Assembly (NCBI RefSeq): GCF_014174215.1
Contig: NZ_JABEQL010000001.1
Span: 186,001 to 250,000 of the forward strand
Length of the DNA: 64,000 nucleotides
Reading direction: 5' to 3'
Source of the DNA: Gluconacetobacter tumulicola
GTDB lineage: Bacteria; Pseudomonadota; Alphaproteobacteria; Acetobacterales; Acetobacteraceae
Shown here one piece after another: positions 144-14,347 of this stretch. The notes beneath the pieces are model-generated. The model ran no database searches and was not told the DNA's origin. It saw only the letters and a list, made by a program, of their open reading frames with translations. Positions within the stretch are counted from its first letter, which is position 1; the number at the start of each line of letters is the position of its first letter. The position numbers and the translations under genes were made by a program.

Positions 144-583
144 AATCGCGTTTGTGCAGCGTCATGGTATTGATCGCATCGTCATCGCCGGCTTTTGCCG
201 GTAACGACGGGAAAGCACTCTATCTTGAGACGTGCTCCGGTTGTCACCAGCCATCGGGAGAGGGGCAACCCGGCCTCGCTCCACCGCTGTCCAATGCAGT
301 ATTGTGGGGCGGACTGGGCGATGCAAAGGCGCGATATATTGCCGCGGTAATGTTGATCGGCCTGAATGGAACGATCAACTCGCAGGGCAATACATACGCG
401 GGCCTCGCCATGCCGCCGCAATCGCAACTAAGCGACGCACAGTTGGCGTCCATCGCGACCTATGTACTCAACGGTCTGAATGGCGTTGACGCGCATGTGA
501 CGCCCGATCTGTTTGCAACCCTTCGTCGGACGCCACCCTCGCATCCGGAGATCAAGGCTATGCGCGCGGTTGCAGTCAAATGA
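140..583 (+). CDS. Small periplasmic monoheme cytochrome c
   Basis: A 147-residue protein. Residues 1-20 form a Sec signal peptide ending AFA. A CSGCH heme-binding motif lies at residues 32-36, and Met91 in an AMPPQ context is the likely distal heme ligand. The fold matches the class I cytochrome c subunits that serve periplasmic dehydrogenases. The ATG at 140 was chosen over an upstream in-frame start because it places the signal peptide at the N-terminus. Its stop overlaps the start of the next cytochrome gene (ATGA), so the two are translationally coupled. Its redox partner is not visible and may lie to the left of the window. Confidence 0.85.
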   Translation: MKSRLCSVMVLIASSSPAFAGNDGKALYLETCSGCHQPSGEGQPGLAPPLSNAVLWGGLGDAKARYIAAVMLIGLNGTINSQGNTYAGLAMPPQSQLSDAQLASIATYVLNGLNGVDAHVTPDLFATLRRTPPSHPEIKAMRAVAVK

Positions 584-1023
584 GATACGATATTCTCTTC
601 ATTGCCTCAGCCCTGCTTTTCTCCTCCAGTGCGCTGGCAGAGCCATCGGCCCGCACGCGCTATCTACTGAAATGTTCCGGCTGCCATCTTCCCGATGGAT
701 CAGGAGAGATATCAGGTGGAATTCCGAATTTCGTTGGCAGTGTCGGCGTATTCGCAGACCTTCCCGAGGGGCGCGCCTACCTGATGCACGTTCCCGGCGT
801 CATTGGATCGAGTATGGATGACAAGGGCATCTCGGACGTCATGAATTATATTATGGAAACGTTTGCCGGCACCTCCCTGAGTTCGGACTACAGATCGTTT
901 TCTCCGCGGGAGGTTTCCGAACTACGCAAGAAAAATATCGGAAACCTCGTAGAATATCGCCGAAAAGTAGCGGCACTATTGAACAAACGCGGTGTAACTC
1001 TTCCCCCTTATCCCTGGCCGTAA
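580..1023 (+). CDS. Second small cytochrome c, coupled to the first
   Basis: A 147-residue secreted protein with a signal peptide (residues 1-20, ending SALA) and one CSGCH heme motif at residues 32-36. It has the same length and heme spacing as the preceding cytochrome but is clearly diverged, with a different C-terminal half. The 4-bp ATGA overlap with the upstream gene implies co-translation. The likely role is electron transfer in the periplasm, passing electrons from an unseen dehydrogenase toward the terminal oxidase. Both cytochromes precede a TonB-dependent receptor in the same direction, so oxidation may be tied to uptake of a substrate or cofactor. Confidence 0.82.
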   Translation: MRYDILFIASALLFSSSALAEPSARTRYLLKCSGCHLPDGSGEISGGIPNFVGSVGVFADLPEGRAYLMHVPGVIGSSMDDKGISDVMNYIMETFAGTSLSSDYRSFSPREVSELRKKNIGNLVEYRRKVAALLNKRGVTLPPYPWP

Positions 1024-5139: not shown

Positions 5140-5649
5140 TCAGTGCGCGCGAACCGCGACGACTTCGATTTCCACCAGCCAGCCGGGATTGGCCAGATGG
5201 GCAACTTCGAATGCCGAGCGGGTCGGCAGCTTCGGCTGGGCCGGCGTGCCGTAGAACTCGGTATAGGCCTTCATCATCCCCGGAAAGTCGATCTTGCCCA
5301 GCTTGGGGTCGGCGACCATGTAGATGTGCATGTTGACGACATCACCCATGGTCAGCTTCAGCTTGGCCAGTTCACCCTGGATGCGGGTCAGCGCGCCACG
5401 CACCTGGGTTTCTGTGTCGCCATAGGCGGCCAGCGTCTTCGGATCGGCCGCCTTGTCGACCGGCGGCGCGCCCATGCCGCTCAGATAGATCGTCGAGGCC
5501 CCAGGAGGCACCTCGATGGCGCTGGAAATCGGGAAATGGCTGCCCGGCTCACCATGCCGGACCACATCCGCCGCCCCGGCGGCAGAGACCGCTCCCGCAG
5601 CCAGAACGGACGCCAGCGCGGCGATGCGGCATGTCTTGAAAATCGTCAT
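5140..5649 (-). CDS. Secreted RidA-family enamine/imine deaminase
   Basis: A 169-residue protein. Residues 1-27 are a Sec signal peptide (MTIFKTCRIAALASVLAAGA, cleaved near AGAA). The rest is a RidA/YjgF/UK114 domain with YLSGMG near the start and the VNMHIYM and FEVAHLANPGWLVEIEVVAV segments at the end. Family members hydrolyse reactive enamines and imines to ketones and ammonia. Most bacterial RidA proteins are cytoplasmic, so export is unusual. The gene starts 7 bases after the cytochrome c stop and is the third gene of the amine oxidase operon. This suggests it clears the imine made by that enzyme in the periplasm. An upstream in-frame ATG at 5700 would bury the signal peptide and was rejected. 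Confidence 0.85.
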   Translation of the reverse strand: MTIFKTCRIAALASVLAAGAVSAAGAADVVRHGEPGSHFPISSAIEVPPGASTIYLSGMGAPPVDKAADPKTLAAYGDTETQVRGALTRIQGELAKLKLTMGDVVNMHIYMVADPKLGKIDFPGMMKAYTEFYGTPAQPKLPTRSAFEVAHLANPGWLVEIEVVAVRAH

Positions 5650-5656
5650 ATCCCTG

Positions 5657-6076
5657 TCAATCCTCTTCGGAGCTGATGGTCGGATGCTGAGCCGCGACAT
5701 CCGACGGCTTCACCATGTCGGTGTAATGATTGCCGAAATGGGTGCGAATATAATTCACTACGTCCGCGACCTGCTGGTCGGTCAGCATGCCGGAAAACCA
5801 CGGCATGCCGCCGAAACCGTTCATTACGACATAGACAGGGTAGTCCGCGCTGGCCAGCTTGGCATTCCCGGCCAGCGCCGGGAAACGGGCGCCGGCCCCT
5901 TCGGCGCCCTTGGCATCGGGCATGTGGCAGCTCTGGCAGACATGCTTGTAGACGTCAGCGCCGTCCTTCAACGGCTGCATCTTGCCCACGACGGCGCTGG
6001 CACTGTCGGCCCGCGCCTGCGGGGCAAGAAACGCGCCGGCCGCCAGGCCGGCCAGAAGCAGAAATACGGACCGCAT
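5657..6076 (-). CDS. Periplasmic cytochrome c, probable electron acceptor of the amine oxidase
   Basis: A 139-residue protein with a signal peptide (residues 1-23, ending ARA), a CQSCH heme motif at residues 47-51 and a likely axial Met in the GFGGMPWFSGML segment. Class I monoheme cytochrome c. Its ATG overlaps the stop of the flavin amine oxidase (TGATG), so translation is coupled and the two proteins are made together. The partnership resembles the known case of nicotine oxidase NicA2, a flavin amine oxidase family member that passes electrons to a cytochrome c. The longer upstream reading frame is antisense noise within the amine oxidase gene. Confidence 0.87.
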   Translation of the reverse strand: MRSVFLLLAGLAAGAFLAPQARADSASAVVGKMQPLKDGADVYKHVCQSCHMPDAKGAEGAGARFPALAGNAKLASADYPVYVVMNGFGGMPWFSGMLTDQQVADVVNYIRTHFGNHYTDMVKPSDVAAQHPTISSEED

Positions 6077-7677
6077 CAGGCAGCTCCCTGCGCGTGTTTG
6101 TGCAGACGGGTGATGGCATCCAGCGACGACAGGATGGCGCCTTCCTGCCAGCAGCCGACATGCGACGCATGCTCGCCGGCCAGTACGATCCGGTTGTCGA
6201 TGTCGCACAGTGCCTTGTAATGGGTCTTGCGCGCCTGTTCCGACCACATGGAACAGCAGCCGAGGGTCCAGGGCATGCGGCTCCAGGCCATCGACACGCC
6301 GGTACGGAACTCCTTGCGGTAGTTGGCATGAATGACCTGACCCTGCGCCAGGCCGTGCTCCAGCCGCTCGGCCGGGGTCATGCCGGCAAAATCATACGCC
6401 GCCGGCCCGAACATGTAGCCGCCCAGCAGAACCGCCGGCCCGTCCGAGAAATAGCCATGGCTGGGGTAGGAGATCTGGCTGATCGGCTGGTCGGTGAAGC
6501 TGATGCCACCATAGATCTGGTCGTCCTGCTCCCAGAACCGGCGCTTGAATTCCAGCCCCAGCTTGACCGACGACGCATAGGGCACCGCCGCAATCGCCGC
6601 CTTCATCGGGCCGCTGACCTGCACGTCCAGCTGCGACAGCACCGGCAGCGGAATCGTGCAGACGCAATAATCCGCCTCGGCCTGCCGCACCGCGCCGCCA
6701 TGGGACATGTCGTTGTAGGTGACCGTCACATGACGATCGTCCTGATGAATCGCCGTCACCTTGCAGTTCAGCGTGATCAGGTCGTGCACCTGGCGGTTGA
6801 AGCCCTTGCCGATCTGGTCCATGCCACCCACCGGCTGGAACATCGTCGTCTGCATGTCCAGCCGCTCGTGGAACGCCATCCACTGCCACAGGCCCGACCG
6901 CATGACGTCTTCCCGCGCGAACAGGTCGGACGGCACGGGCGCACCATCCAGCCCGCCACCCTGCGGCTTGGCGAAGCCACGGCGCAGCGAGCTGATGGCC
7001 CCCTTGCGATAGGCCCCATCGGCCGTCAGCCCACCCCAGCCGCGCATTGCCGAGACGACATGCGCGCGCTCGTCAGGTGAGATCACCTCATCCAGCTTGT
7101 GCTGGTTGATCGCCTTGGCCAGCAGCTCCGCGGTGAAGCCGGTGAAATCCGCCGCGTAATCGCGGTAGCGGACAGGCTTGCCGTCGAACACCTCGCTGGA
7201 ATGCAACCAGGAATTGTGATTCAGCTCGACAAACGGCTCCAGCTCGACGCCGAAGGTCTTGCAGTAATGCAGCAGGCCCTGATGATGATACGGAATCCGC
7301 CACGGGCCGGGATTGATATAGTTCCCCGACGCAAACTGCACCTTCTGCACGGCGCCGCCCAGTTCGGTCAGCGTGTCGCCGCCGCGCAGCGAGATGTTGC
7401 GGCCGCCGGCACGGTTCTGGAACTCCAGGATCTGGACCTGATACCCGGCCTTGCGCAGCTCATACGCGGCCAGCATGCCCGCCAGGCCGGCGCCCAGCAC
7501 CAGGACCTTCGTGCCGGGCTTGCCGCCCGTCAGCGCGGGCGGTCCCTTGAAATCCGTGCCCGCGGCATGCCCCAGGCTCGTCATGGCCTGGTACAGGGCA
7601 GCACTCCCCCCCAGGATACCGATTCGTGTCAGCATCTGGCGGCGGGTGGCCACCGGACGCCGAAAAGCATTTGTCAT
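6076..7677 (-). CDS. Tat-exported flavin monoamine oxidase family protein
   Basis: A 533-residue FAD enzyme. The ATG at 7677 follows a GGGGA ribosome binding site and gives a Tat-type N-terminus (ATRRQML then a hydrophobic GILGGSAAL segment), so the folded, FAD-loaded protein is exported. The dinucleotide-binding motif VLVLGAGLAGMLAAYELRKA lies near residues 58-77, followed by RAGGR, and the C-terminal FAD motif is RIVLAGEHASHVGCWQEGAI. The family oxidises amines or L-amino acids to imines. First gene of a three-gene operon with a cytochrome c and a secreted RidA, which argues that it works as a respiratory dehydrogenase. The substrate is not evident. Confidence 0.87.
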   Translation of the reverse strand: MTNAFRRPVATRRQMLTRIGILGGSAALYQAMTSLGHAAGTDFKGPPALTGGKPGTKVLVLGAGLAGMLAAYELRKAGYQVQILEFQNRAGGRNISLRGGDTLTELGGAVQKVQFASGNYINPGPWRIPYHHQGLLHYCKTFGVELEPFVELNHNSWLHSSEVFDGKPVRYRDYAADFTGFTAELLAKAINQHKLDEVISPDERAHVVSAMRGWGGLTADGAYRKGAISSLRRGFAKPQGGGLDGAPVPSDLFAREDVMRSGLWQWMAFHERLDMQTTMFQPVGGMDQIGKGFNRQVHDLITLNCKVTAIHQDDRHVTVTYNDMSHGGAVRQAEADYCVCTIPLPVLSQLDVQVSGPMKAAIAAVPYASSVKLGLEFKRRFWEQDDQIYGGISFTDQPISQISYPSHGYFSDGPAVLLGGYMFGPAAYDFAGMTPAERLEHGLAQGQVIHANYRKEFRTGVSMAWSRMPWTLGCCSMWSEQARKTHYKALCDIDNRIVLAGEHASHVGCWQEGAILSSLDAITRLHKHAQGAA

Positions 7678-12602: not shown

Positions 12603-13919
12603 ATGATTTTTAAGATATTCGCATTCCTGTCGCTTCTGGCAACACCGGCTCTCGCCGCCAAAGCGCCATCGGCCGCCTGCCTGCCGGCGCCCAACGGCAG
12701 CAACCCCTGCCCCGTCACGCTGCATCGCCCGTCCGTCGCCCCGCTCTCGGCAATGGCGCAACTGGGGCGCGACCTGTTCCACGATCCCGCCCTGTCCGGA
12801 TCGGGGCGACAATCCTGCGCCTCCTGCCACGACCCTGCCCACCATTACGCGCCCGCCGGCTCCGCCGCCGTGGCGCTGGGCGGCACCAGCCTGACACGCG
12901 ACGGGCTGCGCGCGGTCCCGACCCTGACCTATCTGGAAACCCGCCCCGGCTTCAGCATCGGCCCCGATGATGCCGAAACCGAATCCGCCGTCACACCGTC
13001 GACCACCGCCATCGGCCCCCACGGCGCCAAGACCGCGCAGAACACCACCGCCTCCGCCACCAATCTGGTCCCCCAGGGCGGCCTGTTCTGGGACGGCCGC
13101 GCCGACACCCTGCAACAGCAGGCCGACGGCCCCCTCTTCAATCCCGACGAAATGGCCTCCAGCCGCGCCATCGTCCTGGCCCGCCTGACGCACGGCCCCT
13201 ACGCCCCCATGCTCCGCCGCCTGGGCGGCCCCGCCGTCGCCGGTTCGGACAATCTGCTGCTCTCCGAAGCCCTGTTCGCCATCGCGCGCTATCAGATCGA
13301 AGACCCGTCCTTCCACCCTTATGCCAGCCCGTTCGACGACTGGCTGGAAGGCCGCCGCCGCATGACGCCCGCCCAGCGCCGGGGCTACCTGCTGTTCAAC
13401 GACCCGGCAAAGGGCAATTGCGCGGCCTGCCACCCCGACCGTCCAGGCCCGGACGGCACGCCCCCGCTCCTGACCGACCATCAGTTCGAGGCCCTGGGCG
13501 TGCCGCGCAACCGCGCCCTGTCCGCCAACCGCGACCCTTCATTCCACGATCTGGGCCTCTGCGGGCCCGTCCGCACCGACATGGCAACCCGCGCCGATCT
13601 GTGCGGCCTGTTCATCACACCGACCTTGCGCAACAGCGCCACCAGACACGCTTTTTTCCATAATGGCGTCTATCGTACGCTGGACCAGGTTCTGGATTTC
13701 TACATGCTGCGCGACATCACCCCCGACCGGATCTACCCCAAGGATACCGACGGCCAGATCCTGCGATATGACGACCTGCCGCCCCCCTACCACCCCAATC
13801 TCGACGTCACGGATGCACCCTTCGACCGCCACCCGGGCGACCCACCGGCCCTGACCCCGCGCGAACGGCAGGACATCATCGCCTTCCTGCACATGCTGAC
13901 CGATCGGCCGGCACGCTGA
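12603..13919 (+). CDS. Diheme cytochrome c peroxidase / MauG family protein
   Basis: A 438-residue secreted protein with a signal peptide (residues 1-19, ending ALAA). Two heme motifs are visible: CASCHDPAHHYAP near residue 73 and CAACHPD near residue 275. The TLRNSATRHAFFHNGVYRTLDQVLDFY segment is the conserved C-terminal heme region of the CCP/MauG family. Members reduce H2O2 or catalyse oxidative protein modification with electrons from small cytochromes. It follows the phosphoesterase in the same direction 111 bases downstream, but two hairpins separate them. No ribosome binding site is obvious. The number of residues between hemes is normal for the family. Confidence 0.87.
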   Translation: MIFKIFAFLSLLATPALAAKAPSAACLPAPNGSNPCPVTLHRPSVAPLSAMAQLGRDLFHDPALSGSGRQSCASCHDPAHHYAPAGSAAVALGGTSLTRDGLRAVPTLTYLETRPGFSIGPDDAETESAVTPSTTAIGPHGAKTAQNTTASATNLVPQGGLFWDGRADTLQQQADGPLFNPDEMASSRAIVLARLTHGPYAPMLRRLGGPAVAGSDNLLLSEALFAIARYQIEDPSFHPYASPFDDWLEGRRRMTPAQRRGYLLFNDPAKGNCAACHPDRPGPDGTPPLLTDHQFEALGVPRNRALSANRDPSFHDLGLCGPVRTDMATRADLCGLFITPTLRNSATRHAFFHNGVYRTLDQVLDFYMLRDITPDRIYPKDTDGQILRYDDLPPPYHPNLDVTDAPFDRHPGDPPALTPRERQDIIAFLHMLTDRPAR

Positions 13920-13993: not shown

Positions 13994-14347
13994 ATGAGTC
14001 CGATTACCCGCCTGCAACCCGAAACCCGCCTGTGCGGCGCAACGATCCATAGCGGGCTGGTCTATCTGGCCGGACAGGTCGCCGATGATCCGTCGCAGGA
14101 TGTTGCAGGGCAGATGACCGATATCCTGCACCAGGTCGATGCCCTGCTGGCCGAAGCCGGCACGGACAAGAGCCGCCTGCTGTCGGTCCAGATCTTCCTG
14201 GCCGACATGGACGATCTGGCGGACATGAACCGCGCCTGGGACAAATGGCTGGACCACGGCAACAAACCGGCCCGCGCGACCGTCGAGGCCCGTCTGGCCG
14301 ACCCGGCCTGGCGCGTCGAGTTGACCGGTATCGCGGCATTGCCCTGA
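13994..14347 (+). CDS. RidA-family protein (cytoplasmic)
   Basis: A 117-residue RidA/YjgF-like protein beginning MSPITRLQPETRLCGATIHS, with YLAGQVADD and the characteristic SVQIFLADMDDLADMNRAWDKW and PARATVEARLADPAWRVELTGIA segments. The family hydrolyses 2-aminoacrylate and related enamines/imines, protecting PLP enzymes. It has no signal peptide, unlike the secreted paralogue at 5140-5649. It is convergent with ilvE, the branched-chain aminotransferase; IlvE is a known target of 2-aminoacrylate damage, although convergent genes are not co-transcribed. The ATG at 13994 was chosen over the ATG at 13943, which adds an unrelated 17-residue extension. Confidence 0.88.
   Translation: MSPITRLQPETRLCGATIHSGLVYLAGQVADDPSQDVAGQMTDILHQVDALLAEAGTDKSRLLSVQIFLADMDDLADMNRAWDKWLDHGNKPARATVEARLADPAWRVELTGIAALP

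Follow-up and report, generated by a model that had tools for sequence, protein, structure and literature searches.

A conserved operon for a Tat-exported flavoprotein, a cytochrome c and a secreted RidA in Gluconacetobacter tumulicola, a probable respiratory L-amino acid dehydrogenase

In the plant endophyte Gluconacetobacter diazotrophicus PAL5, the genes lao, cccA and ridA (GDI2456-2454), for an L-amino acid oxidase (LAAO), a cytochrome c and a RidA protein, are jointly transcribed, and a role as helpers of the LAAO was proposed for the cytochrome and RidA (Rodrigues et al., 2016, PMC5053998; here and below, published work is cited from excerpts of the articles). A Tn5 insertion in lao abolished the formation of indole-3-acetic acid (IAA) from tryptophan and lowered the transcripts of all three genes, a 38-aa twin-arginine translocation (Tat) signal was reported for the enzyme, and mutants in cytochrome c maturation (ccm), as cited in the same article, retained 5% of the wild-type IAA. 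lao of G. diazotrophicus has also been listed with nuoA-N in one putative operon (PMC9368920). Here we analysed the corresponding three genes in a stretch of 64,000 nucleotides of Gluconacetobacter tumulicola (GCF_014174215.1, contig NZ_JABEQL010000001.1, positions 186,001 to 250,000), hereafter the window. Judging from the sequences and from analogy with characterised enzymes, the operon probably encodes a respiratory periplasmic L-amino acid dehydrogenase, which would combine oxidation of the substrate, electron transfer to cytochrome c (CytC) and imine hydrolysis by RidA.

Tat-exported flavin amine oxidases (FAOs) with an adjacent CytC gene mostly pass their electrons to CytC and react slowly with O2 in stopped-flow experiments, whereas those without such a gene react fast with O2, and dehydrogenase function can be predicted from a Tat signal combined with an adjacent CytC gene (Akram et al., 2025, PMC12224317). 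According to the same article, sequence is not a reliable predictor of oxidase versus dehydrogenase. The present locus resembles these FAO-CytC dehydrogenases (NicA2-CycN-Pnao and others; PMC12224317, PMC9396064) in having a Tat flavoprotein and an adjacent exported cytochrome c, but differs from those of PMC12224317, a survey of 2911 sequences seeded by NicA2 BLAST hits, in belonging to the LAAO branch and in having RidA as a third gene; RidA, Gluconacetobacter and L-amino acid have no occurrence in its main text. Already in 2015, genes for RidA, and sometimes for Rid3, were noted to cluster with those of FAD amine oxidases (PMC4433059), in an article whose text does not contain the word cytochrome. 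In Chlamydomonas, the periplasmic LAAO LAO1 has a RidA partner (LAO2) and yields indole-pyruvate and IAA from tryptophan (PMC10805672). This pairing of a periplasmic LAAO with RidA is like that of the present locus, but the Chlamydomonas system is eukaryotic and described as H2O2-forming, and its cluster consists of LAO1 and RidA with no named cytochrome. A RidA-family protein described in PMC9537276 was considered as a precedent and set aside, since the pathway is cytoplasmic as excerpted. Among the matches listed in our literature search, none was closer than Rodrigues et al. (2016). The initial annotation of this DNA had taken a secreted RidA tied to such an oxidase for a system not yet described, which has to be withdrawn: the cluster, its joint transcription, the knock-out phenotype and the hypothesis on cytochrome and RidA were all published in 2016 (PMC5053998), and the LAAO-RidA pair of Chlamydomonas is also on record (PMC10805672). 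By this comparison, the three-gene system is already known, with the acceptor cytochrome and the role of RidA standing in it as proposals.

Comparison with G. diazotrophicus PA1 5 revealed the same gene order and protein identities of 88% for the flavoprotein, 82% for CccA and 81% for RidA, so that the three genes of the window are orthologous to lao-cccA-ridA and share the Tat signal (Table 1). The surroundings differ, with a nuoK-like open reading frame (identified by eye) upstream in G. diazotrophicus and an M20 hydrolase gene here. The layout first proposed, namely a Tat flavoprotein followed by a cytochrome c gene that overlaps its stop codon and by a leader-bearing RidA 7 bases further on, was confirmed. 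In the NCBIfam search with the three proteins, no model scored over its cut-off among the matches listed (for the flavoprotein, the best 25 of 36).

Table 1. Features of the lao-cccA-ridA operon, in coordinates of the window
Feature	Position	Strand	Evidence
lao, flavoprotein, 533 aa	6076..7677	-	ATG at 7677, stop TGA at 6078-6076; Pfam Amino_oxidase PF01593 E=7.8e-50; 2jae E=4e-86; R127, Y421 and K372 kept
Tat signal region of the flavoprotein, ~38 aa	7564..7677	-	sequence; twin-Arg conservation over 112 rows
TGATG stop-start overlap of lao and cccA	6074..6078	-	sequence; the cccA ATG uses the A of the lao stop (6078-6074)
cccA, secreted monohaem class I cytochrome c, 139 aa	5657..6076	-	Cytochrome_CBB3 PF13442 E=1.2e-13, Cytochrom_C PF00034 E=3.8e-11; gene end at 5657
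haem-binding site CQSCH, residues 47-51 of CccA	5924..5938	-	sequence; alignment of 21 rows
ridA, putative Rid3-type imine/enamine deaminase with signal peptide, 169 aa	5140..5649	-	Ribonuc_L-PSP PF01042 E=1.8e-14; ATG at 5649; 7-base gap to cccA (5656-5650)
RidA signal peptide, ~27 aa, end placed by eye	5569..5649	-	sequence

The closest relative of the flavoprotein in the PDB was the L-amino acid oxidase 2jae, which we take to be that of Rhodococcus opacus (roLAAO), and monoamine oxidases were much weaker matches (best 3e-12). R127, which aligns with roLAAO Arg84, was Arg in all 112 rows of an alignment comprising 110 of the 111 classed FAO rows, the window flavoprotein and roLAAO. Y421, aligned with roLAAO Tyr371, was Tyr in 106 and Phe in 6 of these rows; Arg84 and Tyr371, so numbered, are presumably the residues that bind the substrate carboxylate. 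The assumed source organism agrees with passages of PMC5053998. The Tat assignment was read from the twin-arginine N-terminus, ATRRQMLTRIGILGG, and from its conservation, rather than by a signal-peptide program: the second Arg was found in 111/112 rows and the first in 108/112, with Lys in 3, and the row with a gap at both positions is roLAAO, represented by its aligned stretch only. The arginines were also kept in relatives without a downstream cytochrome. The same 112 rows were used for the tree; the row dropped was the second copy of a paralogue on contig C22 of the G. tumulicola genome, and other FAO copies of this genome, including a TAG-interrupted paralogue, were excluded before tree building. 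A generic amine substrate was rejected, since the Arg and Tyr that bind the carboxylate in the LAAO prototype are conserved and the orthologue is required for tryptophan use in vivo, and the protein is best read from its sequence as an exported amino-acid dehydrogenase rather than a generic amine one.

To follow the gene trio in other genomes, genome contigs were scanned, and the best 80 of 148 candidates gave 79 loci with 81 full FAO genes. A cytochrome gene lay directly downstream of 76/81 FAO genes, in 66 of the 76 with a one-base stop-start overlap (TGATG or TAATG), and RidA was present for 57/81. The proposed link between the three genes would have been undermined by trios rarely adjacent in relatives, and it survived this check. 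The flanking genes tested were mostly not kept outside the genus; since the trio is kept while its flanks vary, chance adjacency was rejected. The idea that the trio belongs to a longer conserved operon, together with the hydroxyacid dehydrogenase gene that follows it or the M20 hydrolase gene that precedes it, was discarded as well, as relatives of both are rare in the 79 loci (flanks of at most 6 kb; some loci are short and may hide further cases). A hydroxyacid dehydrogenase relative was seen in L009, L060 and L054 only (in L054 weak, distant and on the other strand), and an M20 hydrolase relative in 9/79 loci, all from Gluconacetobacter.

Because many of the 79 loci are close relatives, a second sample of 398 genomes was drawn evenly over the phylum (match threshold E<=1e-60, at most three candidates scored per genome). 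FAO matches were found in 27/398 genomes, and the family is therefore far from universal. There were 33 matches, 30 of which were obtained as loci; those without a locus were G000:C17, G287:C45 and G287:C3, so that the surroundings of the G287 pair stand outside the counts. Removal of two loci of the G. tumulicola genome itself left 28 loci from 26 genomes. The two sets overlap, with L110 identical to L062, and L039 and L040 are likewise identical. A monohaem cytochrome was adjacent in 19/28 loci (18 downstream, one upstream), a dihaem, non-orthologous cytochrome of 206-220 residues (open frame) lay between FAO and RidA in 3/28, and RidA was near 20/28. All 19 loci with FAO scores of at least 500 bits had the monohaem type, and the nine below 430 bits were the three dihaem loci and six without an adjacent cytochrome. 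In the tree, the FAOs of the dihaem type grouped together, and those of the phylum sample without a cytochrome formed a separate group. Since the deepest branches are long and their placement is unsure, no order of gains and losses is claimed. The dihaem loci (L127, L128 and L132) have the same operon plan (FAO, dihaem cytochrome, RidA), and their cytochromes resemble the c4-type partners of clade 1 of the FAO-CytC dehydrogenases, in which a dihaem variant is also found (excerpts of PMC12224317).

Paralogous FAO genes were detected in several genomes. Two further copies are present in G. tumulicola itself (L104 2357-4356 and L105 2572-3666, on contigs C22 and C17): one shows 57% identity and has its own cytochrome c gene directly downstream, and the other, 69% identical over the matched part, is TAG-interrupted and has no cytochrome match nearby. 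The sister-species loci L054-L058 contain an intact, 74-75% identical FAO paralogue with a cytochrome and without RidA. In Novosphingobium (L078 and L080), two tandem FAO genes are flanked on their outer sides by cytochrome genes, and in genome G183 (L113/L137) two FAO genes converge, each accompanied by a cytochrome gene of its own.

The cytochrome of the window, CccA, has a single CQSCH site and a hydrophobic leader, and its residues C47, C50, H51, M52 and M91 were invariant over 21 aligned rows. In the proposed mechanism, the exported flavoprotein would first oxidise L-amino acids, including tryptophan, to 2-imino acids, a step supported by homology and by the phenotype of the lao mutant of G. 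diazotrophicus. On the model of NicA2, Pnao and other FAOs paired with CytC, FADH2 would then be re-oxidised in one-electron steps by the cytochrome c of the operon and not by O2. Compared with the initial annotation, which spoke of an amine or amino acid dehydrogenase, the amino-acid dehydrogenase, the cytochrome c acceptor and the secreted Rid3 hydrolase were retained as the best reading of the data and the generic amine was given up. If this reading is right, respiratory electrons would be gained without H2O2.

Several observations weigh against it. Five of the 81 FAO genes lack a downstream cytochrome; it is upstream instead in the first copies of L078 and L080 and in L082, no cytochrome is nearby in L072, and L081 is cut by a contig end. 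In the phylum sample, six of the 28 loci have no adjacent cytochrome, and four of these six have RidA. No downstream RidA was found for 19 of the 76 FAO genes that are followed by a cytochrome, and neither a CuA nor a cbb3 oxidase was found in 11/23 genomes (mostly drafts; COX1 was not searched in these 11). K372, the Lys beside the flavin N5, was present in 112/112 rows and is oxidase-like, but a Lys at this position also occurs in dehydrogenases (PMC12224317). For the FAO of Burkholderia anthina, the same article gives about equal reaction rates with O2 and with its own CytC, and the dihaem clade 1 FAOs reacted only modestly with CytC. The authors of the 2016 study described the LAAO as H2O2-forming (PMC5053998), and among the matches listed in the literature searched, no biochemical comparison of CytC with O2 was found for any enzyme of the LAAO branch.

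Alternatively, the flavoprotein could be a true periplasmic LAAO that reduces O2 to H2O2, with the imines cleared by RidA and the cytochrome serving otherwise, for example by feeding an H2O2-removing dihaem peroxidase. The closest solved relative (2jae) is indeed named an oxidase, H2O2-forming chemistry is discussed for the orthologue (PMC5053998), and dihaem CCP_MauG-family genes occur in 21/23 genomes, one of them within the window. However, for the assayed FAOs with an adjacent CytC gene, CytC was mostly a faster acceptor than O2, with B. anthina and clade 1 as the weak cases (PMC12224317), the ccm mutants lose IAA, as cited in PMC5053998, and the slot after the FAO gene is taken by two unrelated cytochrome types. 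On balance we consider an H2O2-forming oxidase improbable and favour the CytC-dependent dehydrogenase.

For the third protein, the closest PDB entries were PFL1385 (E=7.7e-31) and PSPTO3006 (E=1.3e-26), both of which are Rid3 proteins that remove imines formed by L-amino-acid oxidases in vitro (PMC5619798). The Rid3 rule, an Arg present and an Ile in place of Tyr (PMC4433059), describes the window protein: the catalytic-type R144, which aligns with the Arg of PFL1385 and of L001 (a RidA of the same genome), and I41 were both invariant in 15 aligned rows. Thus the kinship to the Rid3 subfamily (PFL_1385, PSPTO_3006) covers overall sequence, the conserved Arg and the replaced Tyr. The difference lies in export, as the texts of the two Rid3 articles (PMC4433059, PMC5619798) give no hits for 'periplasm', 'signal' or 'signal peptide'. 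Excerpts of PMC5053998 likewise contain no statement on export of RidA, with signal peptide mentioned twice, neither time for RidA. By a simple hydropathy rule, 72 of the 79 RidA matches in the fetched loci have a leader. Among the seven that fail, L017, L019 and L132 are near-misses that look leader-like by eye, L061, L133 and L135 have no usable start, and L085 has no leader in the chosen start. The G. tumulicola genome has five other Rid genes, and the three compared all appear by eye to be without a leader. A second Rid-family gene is located in the window at about 13994-14347 (+), directly after a dihaem protein, and also shows no leader by eye.

The secreted RidA is best interpreted, from its family and leader, as a Rid3 imine hydrolase for the flavoprotein. 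In this third step it would speed the conversion of the imine to the 2-oxo acid and ammonium; given the tryptophan link, indole-3-pyruvate is therefore the likely product of note. Alternatively, RidA might be a passenger or a structural subunit. Such a role would fit the 19 FAO-cytochrome pairs beside which it was not found, as well as the periplasmic LAAO complex of Chlamydomonas, of which RidA is described as a subunit without catalytic function (PMC5053998). Yet R144 is kept, Rid3 proteins lower LAAO imine in vitro (PMC5619798), and in the phylum sample RidA stays beside FAOs that have no cytochrome (4/28) or one of the other type (3/28), so a role apart from imine hydrolysis seems unlikely to us. 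The operon would explain how these plant-associated and fermentation bacteria can convert external tryptophan and other amino acids to oxo acids, and to auxin, without taking them into the cytoplasm.

In the fourth step, a cytochrome c oxidase would take the electrons from CccA in organisms that have one, as this genome does, and another route would serve acetic acid bacteria without one. Five COX1 matches were identified in the G. tumulicola genome. In one cluster, which has SCO-like and subunit III neighbours (assigned by eye), subunit II carries both a CuA motif and a fused haem c. The CuA motif is also seen in the short subunit II of another cluster, but not in the CyoA-type subunit II of a third or the similar one of a fourth. 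The survey of oxidases covered 23 genomes, namely this one and 22 picked from the 79 loci. CoxB was over the cut-off in 9/23, short CuA subunits confirmed by motif added G427 and G440, and FixO of cbb3, found in 3/23, added G443, where the match is partial. The 11 genomes in which no such oxidase was found belong, by their loci, to Komagataeibacter (5), Acetobacter (5) and Ameyamaea (1), and none of the 12 subunit II candidates fetched from them has a CuA motif; because most genomes are drafts, the absence is provisional. The bc1 Rieske protein was present in 23/23 genomes, and all of these 11 have CCP_MauG genes. The statement of the initial annotation that the module sends electrons to the periplasmic cytochrome pool is therefore incomplete and names half the path.

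Where the oxidases are missing, at least, the electrons of CccA might enter the quinone pool, through reverse bc1 or the cytochrome subunit of a membrane dehydrogenase, or reach a dihaem peroxidase, which concerns this last step only and is compatible with the dehydrogenase. The combination of no oxidase found with a Rieske protein and CCP_MauG in all 11 genomes points in this direction, and so does the closest solved stretch to CccA, a domain of the cytochrome subunit of quinone alcohol dehydrogenase (E=7e-11). Quinone alcohol dehydrogenases are typical of acetic acid bacteria. The likeness may, however, reflect host kinship alone, as similarity among small class I cytochromes says little about partners; the window's own genome has CuA oxidases, and drafts may miss genes. 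We regard the quinone or peroxidase route as possible but not the favoured course. More broadly, and as a speculation to which we give rather low odds, the LAAO branch might be a further independent lineage of CytC-dependent flavoprotein amine dehydrogenases, exported in all the relatives examined and often with its own imine hydrolase, and in the oxidase-less acetic acid bacteria that keep bc1, electrons might leave CccA by an unrecognised route (reverse bc1, membrane dehydrogenase or dihaem peroxidase). If so, this would give a job to cytochrome c and bc1, whose presence in these bacteria is puzzling. The comparison makes it testable where the electrons of the cytochrome go in species without a cytochrome c oxidase.

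Further candidate genes for amine oxidation were found around the operon. Upstream of the window lies a mau-like (methylamine/aromatic-amine dehydrogenase-like) cluster (L103 4237-7000 and L155), reaching into positions 1 to about 143 of the window, and thus two periplasmic amine-oxidising modules appear to stand about 5 kb apart. It encodes a heavy chain (PF06433, 5.8e-27, under the NCBIfam cut-off), MauE, MauD (over the NCBIfam cut-off) and, by eye, a cysteine-rich small-chain-like protein. In the window, it is followed by two small CxxCH proteins and then a TonB receptor; at 580-1023 (+) lies a small leader-bearing protein with CxxCH and no Pfam or NCBIfam match at E<=0.001. Relatives of the two CxxCH cytochromes or of the TonB receptor were not seen in L007-L009. 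TonB or cytochrome relatives, though weaker, are present in a few other loci, and in the Acetobacter locus L048 a strong TonB relative (754 bits) directly follows ridA. The dihaem CCP_MauG protein of the window (12603-13919, +) has a leader and matches PF03150 (1.5e-33), with the MauG model far under its cut-off, and from its sequence it could either serve the mau cluster in the manner of MauG or act as a peroxidase.

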